Positions 6,900 through 24,864 of a stretch of 30,350 nt of DNA are shown in pieces. Source of the stretch: Hydnum rufescens UP504 (Eukaryota > Basidiomycota > Agaricomycetes > Cantharellales > Hydnaceae); contig MU129151.1 of NCBI GenBank assembly GCA_014904985.1, positions 51,994-82,343 of the forward strand, written 5' to 3'. The position numbers and the translations under genes were made by a program. The notes beneath the pieces were generated by a model. That model was not told the DNA's origin, did no database searches, and was given only the letters and a program-made list of their open reading frames with translations. Within the stretch, counting starts at the first letter, position 1. Each line of letters starts with the position of its first letter.

Positions 6900-9800
6900 C
6901 TAGGTGTCATGATTTGGGGGGAGGTGTGTCAGCCCCACCAAGGATCGGAAGAGGTGGACTTTGTGCTGGCCAAGGGGCTTGGTGAAGAGGTCCACAGGAT
7001 TGTTGGCAGTGGAGATGAATTTAAGGTCAATGGAACCATCGGTAACGCACTGGCAGATGTAATGGTGGCGGACATCAATATGTTTGGTGTGGGCATGATT
7101 AATGGGATTTTTGGCAAGGAGTTGGGCACCGCGATTATCAATGAAGAGAGTGGTGGGGGAGGTAATGTCCTGATCCAAATCCAGCAGCAAGTGGCGGAGC
7201 CAGATAAGCTCTTTGGTAGCTTCCGCAGCAGCGATATATTCTGCTTCGGTGGAGGATTGAGCAACCATGGCTTGGCCTTTGGAGCTCCATGAGACCAGAC
7301 CACCCGACAGGGTGAACACATAGCCAGAGACGGATTTGCGAGTTGTCAGGTCCATAGTCGGAGTCAGTGTAACCAAGGAGGTTTCCACTGTCAGATCAGA
7401 AGGTAATGCCATAGTGGATAGTGCCAGCAAGGTAGCAGAGGAGGTGCTTGAGAGCGGTGACATGTTCAGTGCCTGGACGAGAGGAGAATCTAGACAGTGC
7501 AGCAACAGCATAGGCGATATCGGGGCAGGTTCCAGTCATCACATACATCACGGATCCAATCACTTCAAGGTATGGAAAATTGCGAGCAGCATCAACCTCA
7601 GCATCAGTTGCAGGCTCCAGTACGATTTTTTCTGGAAGGGGGGTTGAAGTTGGTTTGCAGTCAGCCATTCCAAATTGGGTGAGTACTGTTTTCAGATACT
7701 GTGACTGGTCAACAGTGAGGGTTGAGGTTTGAAGGTTGTAGTGAACATGCATCCCAAGGATCCAGCGTACAAGTCTGAGGTCAACCATTTCGAAGCGGGA
7801 CTCCAATTTGGTAATGATATGTTGCATCGGAGCTGTATTATTGTAGCCAATAAGAAGGTCATCGACATACAGGGATATGACAACATAGTCGTCATTTCGG
7901 TGTAGCAGGTAGATGCAGTGATTGGCTTGTGTGCGGTTGAACCCCAAGGTGAGAAAGAAGGTGTCGATAGTGGCATACCATTCACGTCCCCCTTGCTTCA
8001 GACCATATAAAGCTTTCTTGAGCTTCCAAACCCAGGTCTCCTTCCCTTGTTCCTCATAGCCCTTGGGCTGGCGCATAAAGATATCTTCCTTGAGGATGCC
8101 ATGAAGGAAGGTGCACTTGACATCCATGTGATGGATTTTCAGGCAGTGCTGAATGCAAAGGGCAAGGAAGACTCGGATAGCAGCAGACTTGACAACAGGA
8201 GCAAAACTTTCAATGTAGTTGATATTTTCCCATTGTCAGTCACCATGAGCCATCAAGTGAGCTTTGTAGTGGGTAATCTGTCCATGTTCATCATGCTTCC
8301 GGCGGAGTACCATTTTATTCCCAATGAGGTTTGGGATGCTGATAGTGTCAGGGTTTATGAGGTTGTAGACATCAGCCTTTCGGATAGAGTCGAGTTCAGC
8401 ATGAATGGCAGCATCCCAGAGATGGGATTCTGGTCCAGCAAGTGCATCATCGGTGCGGGGTAGGTCAGGAAGTTTGGTATCAATATCCAAGGTATTGTCC
8501 GCCCCCTTGATGTGGGCAGTGCTTAGAAGGCTGATGAGCTCCTGGGCGAGATTGGCCTGTAGGGAACCCTCAGGTGCATCCTTGCAAATGGTGTCTCATA
8601 AAATGCCATAATGACCATAGTCATCAGGCTCAAGGTGCTTCGGGGCTTTAATGGAGCAACGATCACATAGCCTGGGTAGGGGTGCAGCAGGAGGAGGAAG
8701 GGCATCTGGAAGGTCAGGGGGAGGATCATGTAGGGAGGGCTCACTGGCTTGGTCGGCAGGTGGTCGGTCGGCATCCTCACTGGGTGGGCCCTCAGGGGTG
8801 GTAAATTCGATGTCAGGGTGTGGGAGAGTGGTTTCAACAAACAAGGGGGAGCAGCTAGTGTATGTGTGGTGCATAGATGGGTCCCAGAACCGGTATCCAC
8901 TGACACCTTCTGGGTACCCCAGGAACTTTACCTTCTGAGCTCTATCACCCAATTTTTTTGCTCTGTCAGCTTTGGGAATGTAGATGTAAGCATCACAATA
9001 GAAGACTCGAAGGTGCAAGATGTCAGGTTTGCAGTTGTAGAAGGACTCGAAGGGAGTGATTCCACCATTTGAGGATATCATGGTGTGCTGATGACAGTAA
9101 GTGGCAGTGGCCAAGGCTTCAGCCCAAAGTCCTTGAGGACAATCCATGTCCTTGAGCATGGCCTGAACCTTATTCATGAGCATGCGATTCATCCACTCTG
9201 CAACACCATTTTGCTCAGGAGTACCAGCAACAGTGTGCTCGACTTGGATTCTGTGTTCAGTGCAGTAAGTCTCCAGCTCAGTATTGATGTATTTGCCTCC
9301 ATTATCAGTGCGTAGGATGCCAATGTGATGTCCAATTGAGTTCAGGAAGATTTTGTCCATTTTGATGAACCAAGGTGTGAACTTGCTTTTATGTTTTAGG
9401 GAACAAGTCCAAACCATTCCAGATTTGTCATCAACAAGTGTGGCAAAGTAAAGGTTGCCTCCAAGGGACGGGATGTCCATTTCACTGTAAATGTCTGAGT
9501 GGATGCGGCCAAGGATGTCGGGCACATGAGTGTGACTGATGTCAAAGGGGAGGCGAGTCATTTTGGCCATAATGCAGGATTCACAGGGAGTGTTGCTGAC
9601 TTTGTCAAGGGCAATTCCATCAACTCCATCGACAAGTTTGTGGCACAGCATATCCTGTAGGGTGTGGATACTTGGATGGCCAAGACACTTGTGAAGAAGG
9701 TCTAGGGAGGGGGTGGGGTGAGTGGTCTGCAGGGCCTGGGGTGATATGGTGGGTGGTGAGGAAGGGAGAGACAGGGCTGGGTGAGTGGGCTGAAGGTGCA

Positions 9801-10308
9801 GCTGGAGTAGTGTTCCATGTTCACAGGATTCTGCAATGATTTTTCCAGATTTTGTGCAAATAAGGCATTGGTTGCCTGTGAATATGGCCTCGTGCCCTCG
9901 ATGCATAAGGGTGCATATTGACAGCAGGGCATTCATCAGTTTGGGGACGTGCAGGACCCGGGCAAGTCGCAGGGTGATGTCATGGCCACTGACAATTCCA
10001 GGCAGAGATACTGGGCCCTCCCCATAGGCAAGAATGTGTGAGCCATTGGCAAGGCACACCTTTCAAGGGATTGGGTAAGTCTCATATGAGGTGAAGTTGG
10101 TCATGGTTGGGGCCATATGGTCAGAGCATCCAGAATCGATAACCCACATTGATCGCAAAGGAGGTGCAAGATTGGCTTTGGCAGTAGCTGCATACATTTC
10201 CACTGGTTCGGAGGGAGGACTGGCTGTGGCAGTGGCCATCATCACATCTGCTTCTCTGTCAATGGCATGAACAGTGACAAGGTTTGCCTGTCCCTCCTTC
10301 CCACTCAC
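6900..10308 (-). pseudogene. pol: copia pol: protease, integrase, RT, RNase H
   Basis: Continuous with gag in one frame. Protease shows the D-S-G triad (W-V-I-D-S-G-C). Next come the GAG-pre-integrase H-K-C-L-G-H with C-E-S-C zinc ligands, an integrase core with I-H-S-D, R-T-D-N-G-G and T-P-E-Q-N-G giving the D, D and E residues, then a Pro-rich linker. Reverse transcriptase has M-D-V-K and the catalytic Y-V-D-D, and RNase H has S-S-T-E-A-E-Y. TGA codons lie at 10063, 8596, 8236 and 7396, each in a position where Arg (CGA) would suit the family. A one- or two-base indel near 7350 shifts RNase H to another frame. The final stop TAG at 6900 sits just before the polypurine tract. Confidence 0.93.
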
Positions 10309-10428
10309 AGAGGTTTTCTCGGGGCATTTGGCTTTTACATGGCCAGGTTTTCTGCAGGTATGGCAAGTGGCTGTCTTTAGCCATTCCTCGTACTTTGCCT
10401 TCTCCTCAGGAGTTTTTGGTGGACCATG

Positions 10429-11121
10429 TCAGTTCCCGGTATTGACCTGCAGGGTGGCTGATGAACCTTTTGAAGATGAGTCTGCAACAGACTGCTGTAT
10501 GTGGGTCTCTTCGTCCATTAGTGCCCCCTTGACATCATCCAATGTCACTGATGTGACACCTGTGAGTAGTGTGGTATGGACAACATTGTATGAGGCTGGC
10601 AGCCCATGGAGGAGGGCAAGGGCCAGGAGAGTGTCAGGAATGGGGGGGCCACTGATGGGACCAGATGTGATATAGTCGGCAGCAGCAGTTTCAAGAGCAG
10701 CAGCAAAGTCGGCAATGGATGTGAAGCTGGAGAGGGAGGAGGAGAATATTTTCTGGGCAGCATAGAACTGAGCAGAAAGGCCCTTTGGTTCATACATGTG
10801 GCGCAATTTATTCCATGCAACAGAAGGAATTTCATCATGAGTGATGTGGGATTTCACAGCCAGTTCACAGGTGAGGATGACATTGTACAAGACATTGATG
10901 GTGCCCTTCTCCCAGATCTCCATCTTCGATTCATACTGTGGATCATCAATTAGAGTGTCATTGGCACTGATGATTTTCACAGCAGGTGGGGTGGCATTTT
11001 TCCCTTGGATCCAGGACCATTGTCCGGCATGACAAATGATGAGACACAGATCGGCAGCCCATGCGGCATAGTTCTCACAGCCACAAAGCTTCATGACAGA
11101 TAGCTTGGCAGATTCAGTCAT
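10429..11121 (-). pseudogene. gag: copia gag, capsid part
   Basis: Starts with ATG at 11121, 83 bp inside the 5' LTR boundary, and runs 230 residues to a TGA at 10429. It has the usual copia capsid plan: an aromatic N-E/C-N-Y-A-A-W-like opening and a central helical region with W-N-K-L. The zinc knuckle C-H-T-C-R-K-P-G-H-V-K-A-K-C (CX2CX4HX4C) lies in the same frame just beyond the TGA, at about 10323-10365. That makes the stop look like a mutation rather than a natural gag terminus. Confidence 0.9.
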
Positions 11122-16290: not shown

Positions 16291-16985
16291 AGAAATTGGT
16301 AATTCCTTATAGATAATTACCCTGGTGCCTTCATCTAACAAATGTGCTCAGCCACTATCACCAAAATATTCCCATTCATCTAATCAGGTTGCTGCCAACA
16401 TTTAAACCAAGTGGGTGGGTAAATTTCACTGTTGCTTGGACCCCACAGATTTGTCATAGCACCCAGTATGGCTTCATGTCTATCTCCAATATTTCAACTT
16501 TGACATATTACATGCAATGTTGTTACAGTCCATCACCTATGCCTCCAGCTTCTGGTCTCCACTTGGAGGGAAAAGCCTGGCAGAGATAAGGATTGATCCC
16601 AATGTCATGGGAGGACATCACTTTGATACATGTATGCACATGATGCCTACAATGGTGTATATTCATCAATGATCCCTGCAAGTCTGCTTGCAATATTGGA
16701 TACACCATGTCCTTGCAAATCACCATCATCCCTGATTTGAGCCTGGATAGAGCTAGCAGTATGCTCTGTGTCATGTGCATTAGGTGGATCTGCACCCCTC
16801 CCACCTCGAATCCAAATGATGACCACTAGTTTAACAAGCCGAGATAAGCAATCACCTGTGCACTTAGAATCAATCTCAACACTGACAACAAAGAAACACC
16901 AGGTATTGAATATTAGGCTTGGGGATAGACAGGTGATGCTGGAATGAATGCTTAGATTTCCTGCAGGTGGGAAATTAAGGAAAAC
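16291..16985. other. no gene seen
   Basis: No supported coding frame, repeat or hairpin. It may include 3' untranslated sequence of the minus-strand gene that ends near 16986. Confidence 0.45.
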
Positions 16986-17057
16986 CTAAACTGACCAACA
17001 CTTTGAGGAGGGGCACACTGGCCTTGATTGCCTGCAGGTTTGAGCACCTAATGAAAC
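16986..17057 (-). other. candidate terminal exon after the array
   Basis: After acceptor CACCTAG, frame 0 reads V-S-L-G-A-Q-T-C-R-Q-S-R-P-V-C to a TAG at 16986. It keeps the same phase as the single-codon exons. The alternative is reading on through 17184 (D-D-V-S-T-S-N-V-P-K) without splicing. Confidence 0.4.
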
Positions 17058-17184: not shown

Positions 17185-20100
17185 ATCATCCTGTGGAGAA
17201 TACAATTGTCAAGAGGGCAGTTGGGAAATAGAATATGATTCCATTGTATAGATCTAGGAACTCACAAGCTACATTCCAAATGCCAGCAAAATGTGTATGA
17301 GCCAGGGACCATACAATGAGGGGTAAGAGGTGTGGACTTACATCCTATGGGGTAGTAGATGCCACCAAGGAAGAGATCAGGGAGAGAGAAATAATAAAAG
17401 GGTGGGAGACATGCACTAACCATCTATGAGGACAAAACCACCAAGAGGGACATCAGCAAGCAATGATGTATTGAAGTCTAAGACATCTGGACTCACAGAC
17501 TGGATTGTCAATGCCACCACAAGAGGAATGAGCAGGGCATGATGCATTAAATTTCAAGACATCTGGACTTACTTCCTACATTGTCAATGCCATCAAAAGA
17601 TGGATCAGTGAGGATGGTGGATCAAAATTCTATGAGATTTCAACTTACAACCTATATTGTGAATGCCACCAAAAAATGGATCAGGAAGGGACAATGCATT
17701 GAATTCTAAGACATCTAGACTTACATGCTATGTTGTTCATGCCACCAAAAGATGAATCAGCAAGGCACAATGCATTGAATTCTAAGACATCCATACTTAC
17801 AGCCTATGTTGTGAATGCCACCAAAAGATGAATCAGCAAGGGCACAATGCATTGAATTCTAAGACATCTAGACTTACAGGCTATGTTGGGAATGCCACCA
17901 AAAGATGAATCAGCAAGGCACAATGCATTGAATTCTAAGACATCCAGACTTACAAACTATGTTGTGAATGCCACCAAAAGATGAATCAACAAGGCACAAT
18001 GTATTGAATTCTAAGACATCCAGACTTACACCCTATGTTGGGAATGCCACCAAAAAAATGAATCAGCAAGGCACAATGCATTGAATTCTAAGACATCCAG
18101 ACTTACACGCTATGTTGTGAATGCCACCAAAAGATGAATCAGCAAGGCACAATGCATTGAATTCTAAGACATCTAGACTTACAGCCTATGTTGTTCATGC
18201 CACCAAAAGATGAATCAGCAAGGTACAATGCATTGAATTCTAAGACATCCATACTTACAAGCTATGTTGTTCATGCCACCAAAAGATGAATCAGCAAGGC
18301 ACAATGCATTGAATTCTAAGACATCCAGACTTACGCGCTATGTTGGGAATGCCACCAAAAGATGAATCAGCAAGGCACACTGCATTGAATTCTAAGACAT
18401 CCAGACTTACATCCTATGTTGTGAATGCCACCAAAAGATGAATCAGCAAGGCACAATGCACTGAATTCTAAGACATCTAGACTTACACCCTATGTTGTGA
18501 ATGCCACCAACAGATGAATCAGCAAGGCACAATGCATTGAATTCTAAGACATCTAGACTTACAGGCTATGTTGTGAATGCCACCAAAAGATGAATCAGCA
18601 AGGCACACTGCATTGAATTCCAAGACATCCAGACTTACATGCTATGTTGTGAATGCCACCAAAAGATGAATCAGCAAGGCACAATGCATTGAATTCTAAG
18701 GCATCTAGACTTACAGGCTATGTTGTGAATGCCACCAAAAGATGAATCAGCAAGGCACAATGCATTGAATTCTAAGACATCTAGACTTACAAACTATGTT
18801 GTGAATGCCACCAAAAAGATGAATCAGCAAGGCACAATGCATTGAATTCTAAGACATCCAGACTTACAAACTATGTTGTGAATGCCACCAAAAAGATGAA
18901 TCAGCAAGGCACAATGCATTGAATTCTATGACATCCAGACACACTATGTTGTTCATGCCACCAAAAGATGAATCAGCAAGGCACAATGCATTGAATTCTA
19001 AGACATCTGCACTTACTTCCTACATTGTTAATCCCAACCCAAAGATGTATCAACTGTTAACCATTCTTCTGAGGGTGTGTGATATGGACTTACATCCTAC
19101 AGTGTTCAGGTGACCAAGCAATCCATCAGCCAGGCCCCTTGCATCAAATTCTAAAAGATCCCAGCTTACCCCCTATGTTGTCAATACCATTCACAAGAGA
19201 AATCAGCCAGCAGTGGTATGGAATTGCACCCTCCAGACCTACCTACCCCCTTGTTGCCAATGCAAAAGATGAATCAGGCAGAAACCATGCCTCAATCAAT
19301 ATGATATCTGGACTTACATACTAAAAATGTCACCCAAGATACCTCAACCAAGTACCACCCCATGAATGGTCAGAGACACAAACTCACCACCTTACATTGT
19401 CCATGCCACCAAGAATGTGTCAGCCACTGAGTATGCATTCAATTGCCAGAGACCTCAACATACATTCTACATTTTCAATACCAGGCAATGAATGTATTAG
19501 CCAACACCCATATATCAAATGGTGGGCAATGCAACTCACTTCCTAAATTGTCAATGCCACCAAATGATGAATCAGCCTGCAATCCTGCATCAAATTGTGA
19601 GAGGTCCTGAGCCCACCAGCTACAATGTTGATACCATTGATGGGATCAGCCAGCACCACACACTAACTTCAAAGGGAGGCAGGCTTACTGCCTAGGTTGT
19701 CACAGTCATCCAGAGATGCATGAGCCAGTGATTGTGCATCAAAAAGGTATCAATTAGAACTTACATCCTCCATTATTAATGTCACCAAAGAATATATTGG
19801 CAGTGACCCCACATTGAATTAAAGGAGATCCAAACTTACATGCTACATTGTCAATGGGACCAAACAATGTATCAGAGAGTGACCATGCATTAAATTGTAG
19901 GAGATTCAGGCTTACTTCCTACATTGTCCATGTGAGACAAAGAAAGATCACTCCACACTTGTGTGTTACATTGGAAGAGAACCAGACTTACAGCCTACAT
20001 TGTCAATGCCACCAAATCTATCTCAGCCAACCAGCATTGATTCATTACTAAGGAATTCAGACTTACTTTCTGTGTTGTCAGTCCCACCAATGAATGTATC

Positions 20101-21660
20101 AGTCCTACATCCACCCATGGAAGGTAGGTGACATCCACTTACTTCCTATTTCATCAACCCCACCCAATGATATATCAGACAGCACCCATACATCAAACTG
20201 GGAGGTACCCAGGCTTACATGCTACATTGTTGATGATATTGAAAACAATGTATCACCTGGCACAGTGGGGATAGGCTCACATCCTACATTGTGAATACCA
20301 CCCATTGATGTATCAACCTGTGACCCTACATGAAATTGTAGGAGAAGCTGCCCACCAGCTATGTGATGGTGAATGCCACCAAAAATGGATCAACAAGCAA
20401 TCAGACAAACTCAAAAGGGAGCCCACATTCTTGATTGCCAATGTTATCCAGTGATGCATCAGCCAGGGATGGTGCATCAAGGTGGAGAGCCACACTTACA
20501 TCCTATGTTATCAATGTCATCAAACCATCCACTACCTGTCAGTGACCACATCAAATTGGAAGATATCTAAACATACAGACTGCAATGTCAATGGAACCAA
20601 ACAATGCATGAGCTATCACCAAAGGACCACAGATCAAATTGTGAGAGAACTGGACTTACTGCCTACATTGTCCATAACAGAGGAAGAAATATCAGCCCAT
20701 ACACACATCAAATTGCAAGATATACTGACTTTCTACAGTGTCCATCATCAATCATCCAATGACAGATCAGCTAGTAACCATGTGCCAACTCATAGGAATT
20801 CCCAACTTACATACTATATTGTCCATGTCATCAAATGATGTATCAGCCAGTAACCACCCATGAATACTTGGAAATATGAACATACTTCCTATTTTATTGA
20901 TCCCACCAGTGATGTATCAGCTGAGGACCTGATATTGAATCCACACTCACATACTATATAGTGAATGTCATCAAAATATTTGTCAGTTAGCACCCATGCA
21001 TTGAATTCCAAGACATCTGGACATACATCCTATGGTGTTAATGCCACCAAAAGATAGGTAGTCACTAATCATACATCAAATAACATGGGAAGCCAACCCA
21101 CATTCTGTGTTCATCCCACCAAAAGTTCTATAAACTCATGACCACATATCAAGATGTGAGGTGCAGTCTTACCTCCTACATTGTTCACATGATCAAGGGA
21201 TATATCAGCTGGCCATGGTGCAGATCCAAAGGTGAGAAATGCATACTCACACACTATGTTTCCATGCCACCCAAAGATGTAAACACAGTAATCCCACATC
21301 AAATTCTAAGAGGTGAAAACTCACCCCCTGTATTGCAGATTCCACCAGAAGTTGTATCAGGGAACAGCCATGCATGAAATGATGGGAGCTCCAGACTCAC
21401 ATACTGTTCCCAATGACATCAAAAAATGTATCAGGCAGCTACCATCTATCACAGTGTTGGAGATTCAGACTGACCAACTGCATTGTCAATGCCACAAAGA
21501 GATATGTAAGCCAGTGATCATGGAACAAATTTTAGTGCCTGCTGCCATACCTCCTATGTTGTCAATGCCATCCAATGAACCAATGATGTCACAACCAGTT
21601 ACCACATTTACAGCATATGATACAATCAGTACATTGCTCACAAGTGACAGAGTCACTCAC
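17185..21660 (-). repeat. array of ~58 spliceosomal introns separated by 3-nt exons
   Basis: Units average 76 bp (range 62-83). On the minus strand each reads donor (mostly GTAAGT, with GTGAGT, GTATGT, GTAAGC, GTGGGC, GTCAGT), a CTGAT/CTAAT-like branch, then (T/C)AG, three bases, next donor. Triplets start at 21551, 21475, 21401, 21325, 21251, 21173, 21102, 21027, 20951, 20886, 20811, 20730, 20660, 20577, 20500, 20427, 20356, 20281, 20219, 20143, 20067, 19992, 19916, 19840, 19765, 19689, 19617, 19540, 19464, 19388, 19318, 19247, 19170, 19094, 19017, 18941 (donor lost), 18868, 18791, 18715, 18639, 18563, 18487, 18411, 18335, 18259, 18183, 18107, 18030, 17954, 17878, 17801, 17725, 17649, 17573, 17497, 17421, 17342, 17266. 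By eye, donor GT and +5 G are kept in 57 of 58 units and acceptor AG in all, although old units differ widely elsewhere. No triplet is a stop codon. The first ones translate as E, L, Y, G, C, E, N, D, Y, E, Y, K, A, S, D, N, L. Alternative: a satellite that merely resembles introns. Confidence 0.85.
17560..18990 (-). repeat. young, homogenised block of the 76-bp array
   Basis: About 18 units nearly identical over their intron part (GAATCAGCAAGGCACAATGC core). The triplet between acceptor and donor differs from unit to unit: TTT, TTT, CCT, CAT, CCT, GGT, then GAT, CGC, CTT, GCT, CGT, GGT, and so on (minus strand). A second, milder variable site (TGA, TTC or GGA on the plus strand) lies 7-9 bases inside the intron's 3' end. 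The unit at 18941 has lost four bases of its donor. Confidence 0.9.
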
Positions 21661-21819
21661 CATGAGAATCCTGAACCTGCTATCTGCACGTAACTGGGTT
21701 TCTTCATCTTCCCCAGGTCCGGGGGTCCTGGTCATGATGTTCCCTGAACATAGTCAAATTGTACCATTATCTCATTGATACAGCTTGAGACAGGACCTTC
21801 AGCTCCACCATCAAGGACA

Positions 21820-21875: not shown

Positions 21876-21967
21876 CGTTCTAAAACATGTATGGTATGAA
21901 CCCGACAATTTCTTTTCCAAACCGTGAGCTCAAGCAATGATCTCTGGGTACCAGGTGGAAGTGCATC

Positions 21968-21969: not shown

Positions 21970-22178
21970 CAGTGACCCACAAAACTGTTGCAATGTTTGC
22001 CACTTTTGACCTTCTTTGGTTATTCCTCCCCAGTCAGGCCTTCAAAAAATTTGGAAAATATGTCCAAGATATGTATGCTTCTTGTCTACATATGTGCCAA
22101 ATTTCATGGCAATCCATTAACATTTGACAGAGATATGCCCTCAACAAGTCACCTATGTCATTGCAACAGTTTTGTGGC
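21970..22178 (+). repeat. Tc1 left terminal inverted repeat
   Basis: About 209 bp. It begins CAGTGACCCACAAAACTGTT and ends with an inverted copy of the same motif (ATTGCAACAGTTTTGTGGC, 22160-22178), so each terminal repeat holds two oppositely oriented candidate transposase sites. Confidence 0.88.
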
Positions 22179-22318
22179 TGACCTTTCAGATCAGAGAAAC
22201 ATGACATTACTGTCATGTGACATTGTTTATACCCAAAGGTACAAACACAGCCAAATAAATAAACATCGGAAAAGCATAAATACCAGCAGTCCCAAGGCTA
22301 TATGCCCCCCAATCAACC

Positions 22319-23334
22319 ATGCGTGCTTTATCAAATGCACAACTTGACAATGTCCTTCATCTCATTGACTCCAAGCACTCTGCCCACAAAATCTCCTCCA
22401 TTACTGGTCTCCACACTTCTACTATCACCCATGTCTGGTCCAAACATCGCCCCCATGTTTCCAAGTCCTCTGGTGGTCGTCCATCAAAGCTTTCCCCCCA
22501 CTGATGTCTGCCATGCCATCCGTCTTATCCACACTGGGAAGGCTACCACTGCCACCCAAGTTGCCCATTCCCTCCAATCCATCACCAACCAGTCACTCTC
22601 CAATGAAACAGTCCGCCGCCATCTGAAGAGTGCTGGTTTAAAGGCTGTGGTGAAGAAGAAACGTCCCCTGCTCTCCCAGCGCCACAAGCGTGAGACTGGA
22701 CTTTGCCCTAAGCCATAAGGACTGGACTGTGGATGACTGGAAGTGTGTTGTGTGGTCTGATGAGACCAAAATTAATCGCCTGGGCTCTGATGGGTGAAAA
22801 TGGGTGTGGAAAAAGGCTGGGGAGGGCCTCTCTGATCGTCTGGTGGAAGGGACTCTGAAGTTTGGTGGTGGTTCCTTGATGATGTGGGGGTGTATGACAT
22901 GGGAGGGGCCTGGATATGCATGCAAGATTGATGGCAAGATGGATGCCAACCTCTACTGCCAAATTCTGGAGGATGAACTCCAAGGATCCCTCGAATTTTA
23001 CAACAAATCACCTGGCGATGTGGTTTTCCAGCAGGACAATGACCCCAAACACACCAGCAAAATGGCCCAAGCCTGGTTCAAAGACCATGGTTTCAATGTC
23101 ATGAAGTGGCCTGCCCAGTCCCCAGACCTCAATCCAATTGAACACCTCTGGCATCACATCAAAACAAAGCTTGGAGGATATGAAGAACCCCCCAAAGGCA
23201 TCCATGAGCTATGGGAGCGAGTAGAGGCAGAGTGGGAGAAGATTGAAGCAGGGGTGTGTCAAAATTTGATAGAAAGTATGCCTAGGAGGGTGGAAGCAGT
23301 GTGGAAGGCAAAGGGGGGGTACACAAAATACTGA
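22319..23334 (+). pseudogene. Tc1 transposase, frameshifted
   Basis: ATG at 22319 opens an N-terminal paired-like helix-turn-helix region (M-R-A-L-S-N-A-Q-L-D). An extra C in the C-run at 22494-22499 shifts frame. A second HTH part (N-E-T-V-R-R-H-L-K) follows, then about two bases are missing near 22690. A TGA at 22795 stands where Arg is expected (D-G-x-K-W-V-W). Catalytic D residues are in V-W-S-D-E-T-K and Q-Q-D-N-D-P-K-H-T-S, and E is in S-P-D-L-N-P-I-E-H-L-W, 34 residues after the second D. The frame ends at the TGA at 23332-23334. The C-terminal catalytic part is intact, but the full protein is not encoded. Confidence 0.92.
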
Positions 23335-23364
23335 ACTGTAATGATTTGTGTCACAATTTCATGT

Positions 23365-23574
23365 GCCACAAAACCGTTGCAATGATATAGGTGGCTTGTT
23401 AAGGGCATATCTCTGTCAAATATTGATGGATTGCTGTGAAATTTGGCACATGTGTAGCCAAGAAGCATATACATCTTGAACATATTTTTTCAAATTTTTT
23501 AAATGGCTGGTTGGGGAGGTATAAACAAAGAGAGTCAAAAGTGGCAAACATTGCAACGGTTTTGTGGGTCACTG
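23365..23574 (-). repeat. Tc1 right terminal inverted repeat
   Basis: About 210 bp, complementary to 21970-22178, again with an outer and an inner oppositely oriented ACAAAACCGTTGCAAT motif. Confidence 0.88.
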
Positions 23575-24399: not shown

Positions 24400-24535
24400 A
24401 CGTTTTCCGTTCCGCTTCACTATAGCCGCGCCGGCGGGGCTGTCTGTTAGTCATTCGAGCAGAGTGGTCTTTCCTGCGTTCGCCGGTCCAAGTATGAGGA
24501 CCCTGAAGCGTTTGTTTCTGACCCTGTCTTTGTTG

Positions 24536-24812
24536 GAGAGTTCTTTGTCGGGGACTCCTGTGTCAGGGACTTGTTCGTCGGGGACTTGTTCGTCGGGGAT
24601 TCCTTTGTCGGGGATTCCTTTGTCGGGGACTTCTTTGTCGGGGACTCCTGTGTCGGGGACTTGTTCATCGGGGACTTGTTCATCGGGGACTTTTTTGTCA
24701 GGGATTCCTTTGTCGGGGACTTCTGTGTCAGGGACTCCTGTGTCGGGGACTTGTTCATCGGGGACTTGTTCGTCGGGGGCTTGTTCGTCGGGGGCTTTTT
24801 TGGCGGGGGCTT
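24536..24812 (-). repeat. 15-bp coding minisatellite in the GTPase gene
   Basis: About 18 copies of a GTCGGGGACTTGTTC-like unit (plus strand), coding on the minus strand for pentapeptides such as V-P-D-E-Q, V-P-D-T-G, V-P-D-K-E and I-P-D-K-G. All units keep 15 bp, so the frame is maintained. It forms an acidic, Pro-rich, probably disordered region between the start and the P-loop. Confidence 0.92.
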
Positions 24813-24864
24813 TGTTGGTGAGTTTCTTGGGGAGCTTAACATGCTTGCGGATGGATTTCCACAT

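Follow-up and report, generated by a model that had tools for sequence, protein, structure and literature searches.

A probable GTPase gene family with chained single-codon exons and a predicted hypervariable tail in the fungus Hydnum rufescens

The stretch of DNA analysed here, called the window in the following, comprises 30,350 nucleotides (nt) of the hedgehog mushroom Hydnum rufescens UP504 (Basidiomycota, Cantharellales; NCBI GenBank assembly GCA_014904985.1, contig MU129151.1, positions 51,994 to 82,343). On its minus strand lies a GTPase-like gene that runs into a tandem array in which introns alternate with exons of a single codon. We consider it likely that the gene belongs to a GTPase family with 47-103 chained single-codon exons, of which the constant part is spliced and a hypervariable tail provides frame-safe diversification for nonself recognition. 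We propose the following mechanism. As every intron is in phase 0 and those in the middle of the array are near-identical, a unit that is gained, lost or copied with breakpoints inside introns would bring in, remove or replace an entire codon, with the reading frame kept. The old units at both ends of the array would hold fixed peptides (ELYG..E at the start, VESMDL or PEDL at the end), and the young central units would be replaced fast. Units would be turned over singly by recombination, and this, combined with diversifying selection or with mutation targeted to two bases, would create a new tail for each paralogue; the tail would be the sensing part of a nonself-recognition GTPase.

Single-codon exons and their splicing

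The array begins with the donor that follows ...ATTCTCATG (21661), ends with the exon GATGAT and spans exactly 17185-21660; its first and last three-base exons lie at 21553 and 17266 (Table 1). Each unit of about 76 bp consists of an intron and one codon. A sequence-only reading of this DNA had described about 58 stop-free single-codon exons with a period of about 76 bp, a G at donor position +5 and a CTRAY-like branch motif in most units, and its description agrees well with our results. The chain found has 58 three-base exons, all of them sense codons, and the +5 G is present in all 58 donors by our recount (57 had been given). Of 57 introns, 41 have the branch motif 10-50 nt upstream of the acceptor, compared with 7.2 (standard deviation, s.d., 2.4) when the introns are base-shuffled. 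Within the array, Tandem Repeats Finder detects the 76-bp period at 17452-19052 and at 19758-19944. GTAAGT (30) and GTGAGT (8) are found among the 58 donors, and the acceptors are TAG (47), CAG (7), AAG (3) and GAG (1).

Table 1 Features of the array-bearing gene in the window (positions of the window)
Feature	Position	Strand	Remarks
First GTPase exon MWKSIRKHVK...	24451..24864	-	15-bp coding repeats, P-loop GPANAGKT; runs into TGA (LLE*) in the window copy
Tc1-type transposon in GTPase exon	21970..23574	.	inverted ends CAGTGACCCACAAAAC, TA on both sides; DDE_3 and HTH_Tnp_Tc3_2
GTPase exon piece ..LELTVWKRN..VLE	21876..21967	-	ends at donor GTGAGT; the transposon, and no splice site, defines its start
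Exon RVLDGGAE	21797..21819	-	P0001 and P0002 read RVLGGGAK across the same junctions
Exon GNI-MTRTPGPGEDEETQLRADSRFRILM	21661..21743	-	last ordinary exon ahead of the array; identical text in P0001 and P0002
Single-codon exon array	17185..21660	-	58 three-base exons and a final 6-nt exon; introns mostly 73 nt
Constant 5' part	19017..21553	-	35 codons ELYGCENDYEYKASDNLDHEKAEHDALENVYGGDE; introns diverged
Hypervariable part	17725..18943	-	17 codons CFFPHPGDRLARGFPAH; introns near-identical; splicing predicted only
Constant 3' part	17266..17651	-	codons VESMDL
6-nt exon GATGAT (DD)	17185..17190	-	predicted; donor GTAAGT
36-nt exon	16996..17031	-	AIKASVPLLKVL in the window; predicted; weak third-base excess (0.158/0.096/0.168)
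Last exon	16826..16855	-	end LGLLN + TAG; predicted, alignment only

Splicing of the constant part is supported by transcript-like database proteins. Eight JGI proteins (P0001-P0004 and P0006-P0009), whose source contigs measure 931-1641 nt, join ELYG to FRILM; a further protein search brought no more of this kind. P0001 and P0002 (contigs of 931 and 1186 nt) read ...RADSRFRILM-ELYGCENDYEYKASDNLDHEKAEHDALED; in P0002, 29 codons are joined after FRILM, 28 of which are the same as the window triplets, and P0006 (936-nt contig), from a relative outside the 19 loci compared, contains 33 joined codons. The corresponding unspliced stretch of the window is about 2.1-2.2 kb long. The phase-0 joining of the triplets to the exon ending FRILM, which the sequence-only reading had assumed for the whole array, is borne out for the constant part by these 29 and 33 codons. 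In six of the proteins the text after the joined codons resembles the genomic intron of the corresponding place (6/6 residues in P0004, 10/10 in P0007, 21/22 in P0008, about 19/22 in P0009, 17/21 in P0003 and 4/6 in P0006), as partly spliced RNA would give, and the introns retained differ among the six. P0001 and P0002 end in SRYHID, which is the reading of window positions 19312-19292 from just after GTAAG, followed by a stop; therefore, a cryptic acceptor was probably used. Because they are short and retain introns, the JGI contigs behind the array-bearing proteins are apparently transcripts, and the mix of spliced and unspliced introns fits RNA and not an intronless gene copy. The variable part would be spliced likewise. 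Single-codon exons escape annotation, as the NCBI models found end ahead of FRILM, at FRILM with a short piece of different text, or barely inside the array, as in P0028 with FKILM-DY-VSVDSI.

Related arrays were found at 26 places in the genome (overlapping rows merged by hand), and at least six further array places are among the pattern matches listed (two on C2, two on C4 and one each on C6 and C9). The pattern used, two neighbouring ATAG-NNT-GTAAGT junctions 55-72 nt apart, matches 770 times in the genome (509 + 261), whereas its reversed control does not match at all; a pattern scan of viral contigs gave 0 matches. Twenty-one loci were parsed on DNA signals, the arrays on C267, C35, C127, C164, C10 and the six further places lying outside this set. 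Complete chains were obtained with 47 codons in L018, 74 in L026, 78 in L021, 84 in L015, 92 in L013 and 103 in L029; the remaining parsed arrays are split, or interrupted by gaps or poor sequence. L002-L008 and L010 were excluded from the counts as they overlap with other locus sequences, and L019 and L020 from the alignment of 18 loci used below, as they have no start. All examined loci are tandem arrays of one gene family, an expanded paralogous family of array-bearing genes. In L024 and L025 an extra first single-codon exon (V) stands ahead of ELYG, 14 nt past the donor in L024, which may be an artefact of the parser. On one contig (G000:C252:58699-68174) pieces of array point in opposite directions, which reflects either an inverted repeat or a misassembly.

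The older triplets are coding. Only 3 of 748 triplets outside the recent units are stops, compared with 40.4 expected (s.d. 5.1, minimum 22 in 500 column shuffles), and these three sit, as far as seen, in L014 and L016. As a codon of the form NNT is never a stop, only the older triplets inform on coding; the absence of stops in the recent codons (0/595, with 2.2 expected) was rejected as proof of coding for the variable part. The sequence-only reading had proposed a comparison of splice-site columns with all others, and across the 18 loci the splice-site columns are the more conserved. The mean pairwise difference (one unit and columns with fewer than nine letters skipped) is 0.000 at the donor GT, 0.036 at +5, about 0.10 at +3, +4 and +6, and 0.030 and 0.014 at the A and G of the acceptor, compared with 0.161 in the rest of the intron. 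Array residues E1, L2, E6, Y9, Y11, L27, Y31 and D34 are invariant in the 18 loci, one Glu position exchanges GAA and GAG, and nine of the 31 triplets are fixed in 17 or all 18 loci, compared with 12% of intron 3-mers.

Hypervariable codons between near-identical introns

In the recent units the codons have the form NNT and their first two bases are near random, even between identical introns. This was quantified in 401 recent units from 20 loci, whose 73-nt introns have 85% or more similarity to the window consensus: codon positions 1, 2 and 3 reach 1.70, 1.92 and 0.30 bits, and the introns 0.31 bits on average. Where both 73-nt flanks are identical the same codon is found in 2 of 8 pairs, and where they differ by at most one base in 9 of 44, the within-locus baseline being 0.137. 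Linkage was tested with triplets between two consensus-like 73-nt introns only (318 and 416 triplets). None of the 46 informative intron columns shows linkage to the codon dinucleotide, not even at a distance of 7 nt (z -2.1 to 2.4, within-locus shuffles). The intron columns are themselves hardly inter-linked; therefore, the linkage test does not discriminate between hypermutation and shuffling, and frequent small exchanges between units are likely.

The variable peptides were cut by eye from the parser output, for 17 loci in the analysis of words and composition and for 10 in the alignments, six of which gave 15 pairs less than 8% diverged. These six sister loci, whose constant parts are 3-7% diverged, have no common variable peptide, and in all 15 pairs the variable peptides align no better than shuffled ones. 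Words of 2-6 residues common to different loci do not exceed chance among the 17 loci, which argues against block shuffling of multi-codon cassettes between loci, and this candidate was rejected. Within loci the excess of words is slight (42 3-mers vs 26.1, s.d. 6.0; nine 4-mers vs 3.6). Adjacent single-unit duplication was likewise rejected as the main recent process, since equal neighbouring residues number 76 with 71.0 expected (s.d. 7.4). Amino-acid composition differs strongly by locus (chi-square 682 vs 272 permuted, s.d. 25; L029, for example, is Leu-rich and L028 Trp-rich), which suggests that units are probably copied within a locus.

The third base is T in 558 of 595 recent codons. 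C occurs in only 4 of 595 recent and 1 of 748 older triplets, because an NNC codon followed by the donor GT would create a CpG; TG/CA exchanges are found in the introns. CpG avoidance thus explains the third-base T partly, but leaves the lack of A and G at this position unexplained. CpG depletion is seen in all parsed arrays, which are possibly methylated.

The predicted GTPase gene carrying the array

Upstream of the array the protein text reads MWKSIRK...RFRVLILGPANAGKTT...FHDSGGF...TKLD, and its relative P0014 contains the motifs GPANAGKT, DSGG and TKLD, which we take to be G1, G3 and G4. The P-loop region is open in the relatives P0014-P0016 and P0018; the NCBI model on the window contig, P0038, skips it. 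Text corresponding to the GTPase exon piece next to the transposon is present in P0001 and P0002. A Pfam search of P0014, P0015, P0006 and P0002 returned GTPase/ATPase families in the first two and none in the last two, and in all four NACHT and ANK are absent at E <=0.1. Arf scores 22.7 bits in P0014 (cut-off 22.3) and 17.7 in P0015, below the cut-off; the match to MMR_HSR1 is below its cut-off, and P0015 has a very weak match to nSTAND_NTPase5 (13.2 bits, cut-off 34). The structure model of P0014 (predicted local distance difference test score, pLDDT, 69.9) has 241 PDB matches at E <=0.001. The best 50 of these are mostly GTPases with template modelling (TM) scores of 0.3-0.46 to the query; immunity-related GTPases (IRGs) and GIMAPs are among the best fold matches, and G-alpha chains also occur in the best 50. 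As a prediction from model and motifs, the P-loop GTPase fold class appears reasonably safe, and the subfamily does not.

For the end of the protein, short predicted C-terminal exons (Table 1) are weakly supported in place of the downstream open frame VEIDSKCTG.... The latter was rejected as a C-terminal exon: its three codon positions show similar variation (0.183/0.198/0.200), and of its 54 genome matches 22 contain a stop. At the N terminus of the GTPase a 15-bp coding repeat (24527-24812, minus strand) encodes VPDEQ/VPDTG/IPDKG pentapeptides; similar repeats that differ in composition are present in P0028 and P0047, and the length of the N terminus seems variable too. Elsewhere in the window, reading frames of a Copia-type polyprotein lie at 6900-11121 on the minus strand, presumably GAG, integrase and reverse transcriptase/RNase H text, and a 15-bp repeat TCCCACACCCCGTCC is present in 17 copies at 2498-2752, open in at least two frames.

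Competing explanations and known systems

Other explanations of the data were weighed, which differ in how much of our model they retain. The constant part might be spliced as proposed and the variable array be minisatellite-like, usually retained or skipped, so that the protein ends near FRILM or in the array and the codons vary neutrally. All eight array-bearing proteins do end in intron text or a premature stop, and the NCBI models P0014, P0015, P0018 and P0019 end at FRILM followed by intron-like or other text. However, neutral noise leaves unexplained why two bases of 76 are near-saturated and the rest far less variable; the conserved VESMDL or PEDL codons lie beyond the variable part, and donor, acceptor and chain stay intact over 92-103 units. 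We therefore regard this explanation as improbable. Still less probable is that introner-like elements entered a pre-existing frame at each of its codons, despite the resemblance of the hundreds of near-identical intron copies to such elements. The copies stand in tandem, the loci examined are one gene family, and sister loci differ in codon number and in the codons themselves; as the six sister loci have no common variable peptide, the tail is not just an older peptide split by recently inserted introns, and such recent insertion was rejected as a candidate. The sequence-only reading had offered a coding segment broken by an introner or, alternatively, repeated duplication of intron plus codon, in a system it held to be undescribed. 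Its single-codon exons are upheld for the constant part and the duplication alternative fits better; the introner-broken segment and the novelty, as discussed below, find no support. It spoke neither of the near-identity of recent units outside codon bases 1 and 2 nor of a GTPase gene family.

With the splicing model kept, two views of the motor remain. The chances seem even that ordinary mutation and diversifying selection, with concerted evolution of the introns and no special mutation process, are sufficient. This view agrees with a composition that differs by locus, as if units were copied within it, with intron columns that are themselves near linkage equilibrium, and with the ordinary cause, CpG, of the near-absence of third-base C. 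On the other hand, selection on amino acids should also make use of A and G at the third base (Glu, Gln, Lys, Met), where T is so prevalent, and the tail is already unrecognisable at 3% divergence of the constant part. The other view, which is possible but rather doubtful, is a eukaryotic codon-randomising system in which variation is aimed at two bases per 76-bp unit and the spliceosome joins the NNT codons out of a fixed intron scaffold. We slightly favour selection and shuffling over a targeted two-base process, with recombination as the presumed motor.

Several observations weigh against the proposed model of a spliced array with a hypervariable recognition tail. No database protein was found that spans the variable codons: of the eight with array codons, six run out in intron text and the other two, P0001 and P0002, end at an apparent cryptic acceptor and stop; the RNA nature of their contigs is itself deduced from length and retained introns. 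The window copy is broken, with the transposon in a GTPase exon and a stop after the P-loop, and it has a poor donor, GTCTGG, after its first variable codon (18943). The arrays of L014 and L016 hold in-frame stops, and L009, L011, L017, L020 and L023 show many 1-nt indels and 'exons' that are not 3 nt long, which resembles uncorrected long-read gap filling or poor assembly. Many of the 18 aligned loci are close relatives, so that their counts are not independent, and the codon positions of the constant part average 0.206/0.133/0.124, not slower than the intron (0.161), because several places vary freely. Some intron columns also vary strongly between loci (highest 1.41 bits), and linkage between intron columns within loci is weak too, with two column pairs above z 6. 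Within our own data, variability, copy number and fold are the sole grounds for a recognition role.

Exons of this size have a fungal precedent. Tens of codon-sized or 3-bp exons were reported in 2012 from the nank genes of Tuber melanosporum (work cited in PMC4986451, PMC3689799 and PMC10197012), in contrast to the statement of the sequence-only reading that no such system is described. As far as the available descriptions of nank tell, both systems combine tens of 3-bp exons with an expanded family, an NTPase-type gene, an ectomycorrhizal fungus and a proposed diversification of recognition proteins. The truffle genes are described as NACHT-ANK genes diversified by alternative splicing, whereas Hydnum has an Arf/IRG-like GTPase, and its arrays differ from the nank genes, in the same descriptions, by the regularity of the units and the two-base hypervariability. 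The abstract of the 2012 work reportedly likens nank microexons to the micro-exon genes of schistosomes. In Schistosoma, as summarised in PMC10526429, micro-exon genes (MEGs) encode secreted proteins by exons of 3-81 bp, with introns of up to 5 kbp; according to this summary they share with the Hydnum arrays tiny exons from 3 bp and variable products, although MEG exons reach 81 bp. The WD, ANK and TPR repeats of fungal NOD-like receptors (NLRs) are likewise described as near-identical, with concerted evolution and positive selection at particular positions. In those accounts the repeat is a protein unit of dozens of residues, whereas the repeat of Hydnum is an intron with only one coding codon per unit. 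The introner-like elements of fungi, as presented in PMC4457414, are near-identical short spliceosomal introns in many copies in unrelated genes. The Hydnum introns are near-identical like those so presented, but in the loci examined their copies stand in tandem within one family. In diversity-generating retroelements the frame is fixed and the randomised codons have a form that excludes stops, which the Hydnum codons resemble. Unlike adenine-directed retroelement mutation, however, saturation in Hydnum is confined to the two codon bases, and intron adenines are not randomised. No report on the Hydnum arrays was found in our searches of the open-licence literature, and as far as our searches show the codon hypervariability is without precedent.

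Exons of a few bases are difficult for the spliceosome, and a single gene would here require 47-103 such exons one after another. Splicing of the entire array, if it occurs, would make it a natural test bed for the joining of 3-nt exons by intron definition. The layout suggests its own reason, namely that, with single-codon exons flanked by interchangeable introns, recombination can alter a protein residue by residue and with no frameshift. The hypervariability, the number of paralogues, the fold resemblance and the Tuber precedent together suggest a recognition role, and the tail likely gives every copy its own recognition surface. Should the doubtful codon-randomising system be true, the genome would hold recognition tails of high variability by the dozen, comparable in a fungus to antibody loops or to the diversity-generating retroelements of phages. 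Hydnum is ectomycorrhizal, and a second fungal lineage with an NTPase-type family, again in an ectomycorrhizal fungus, would be a sign that diversity generators for nonself recognition evolved more than once.

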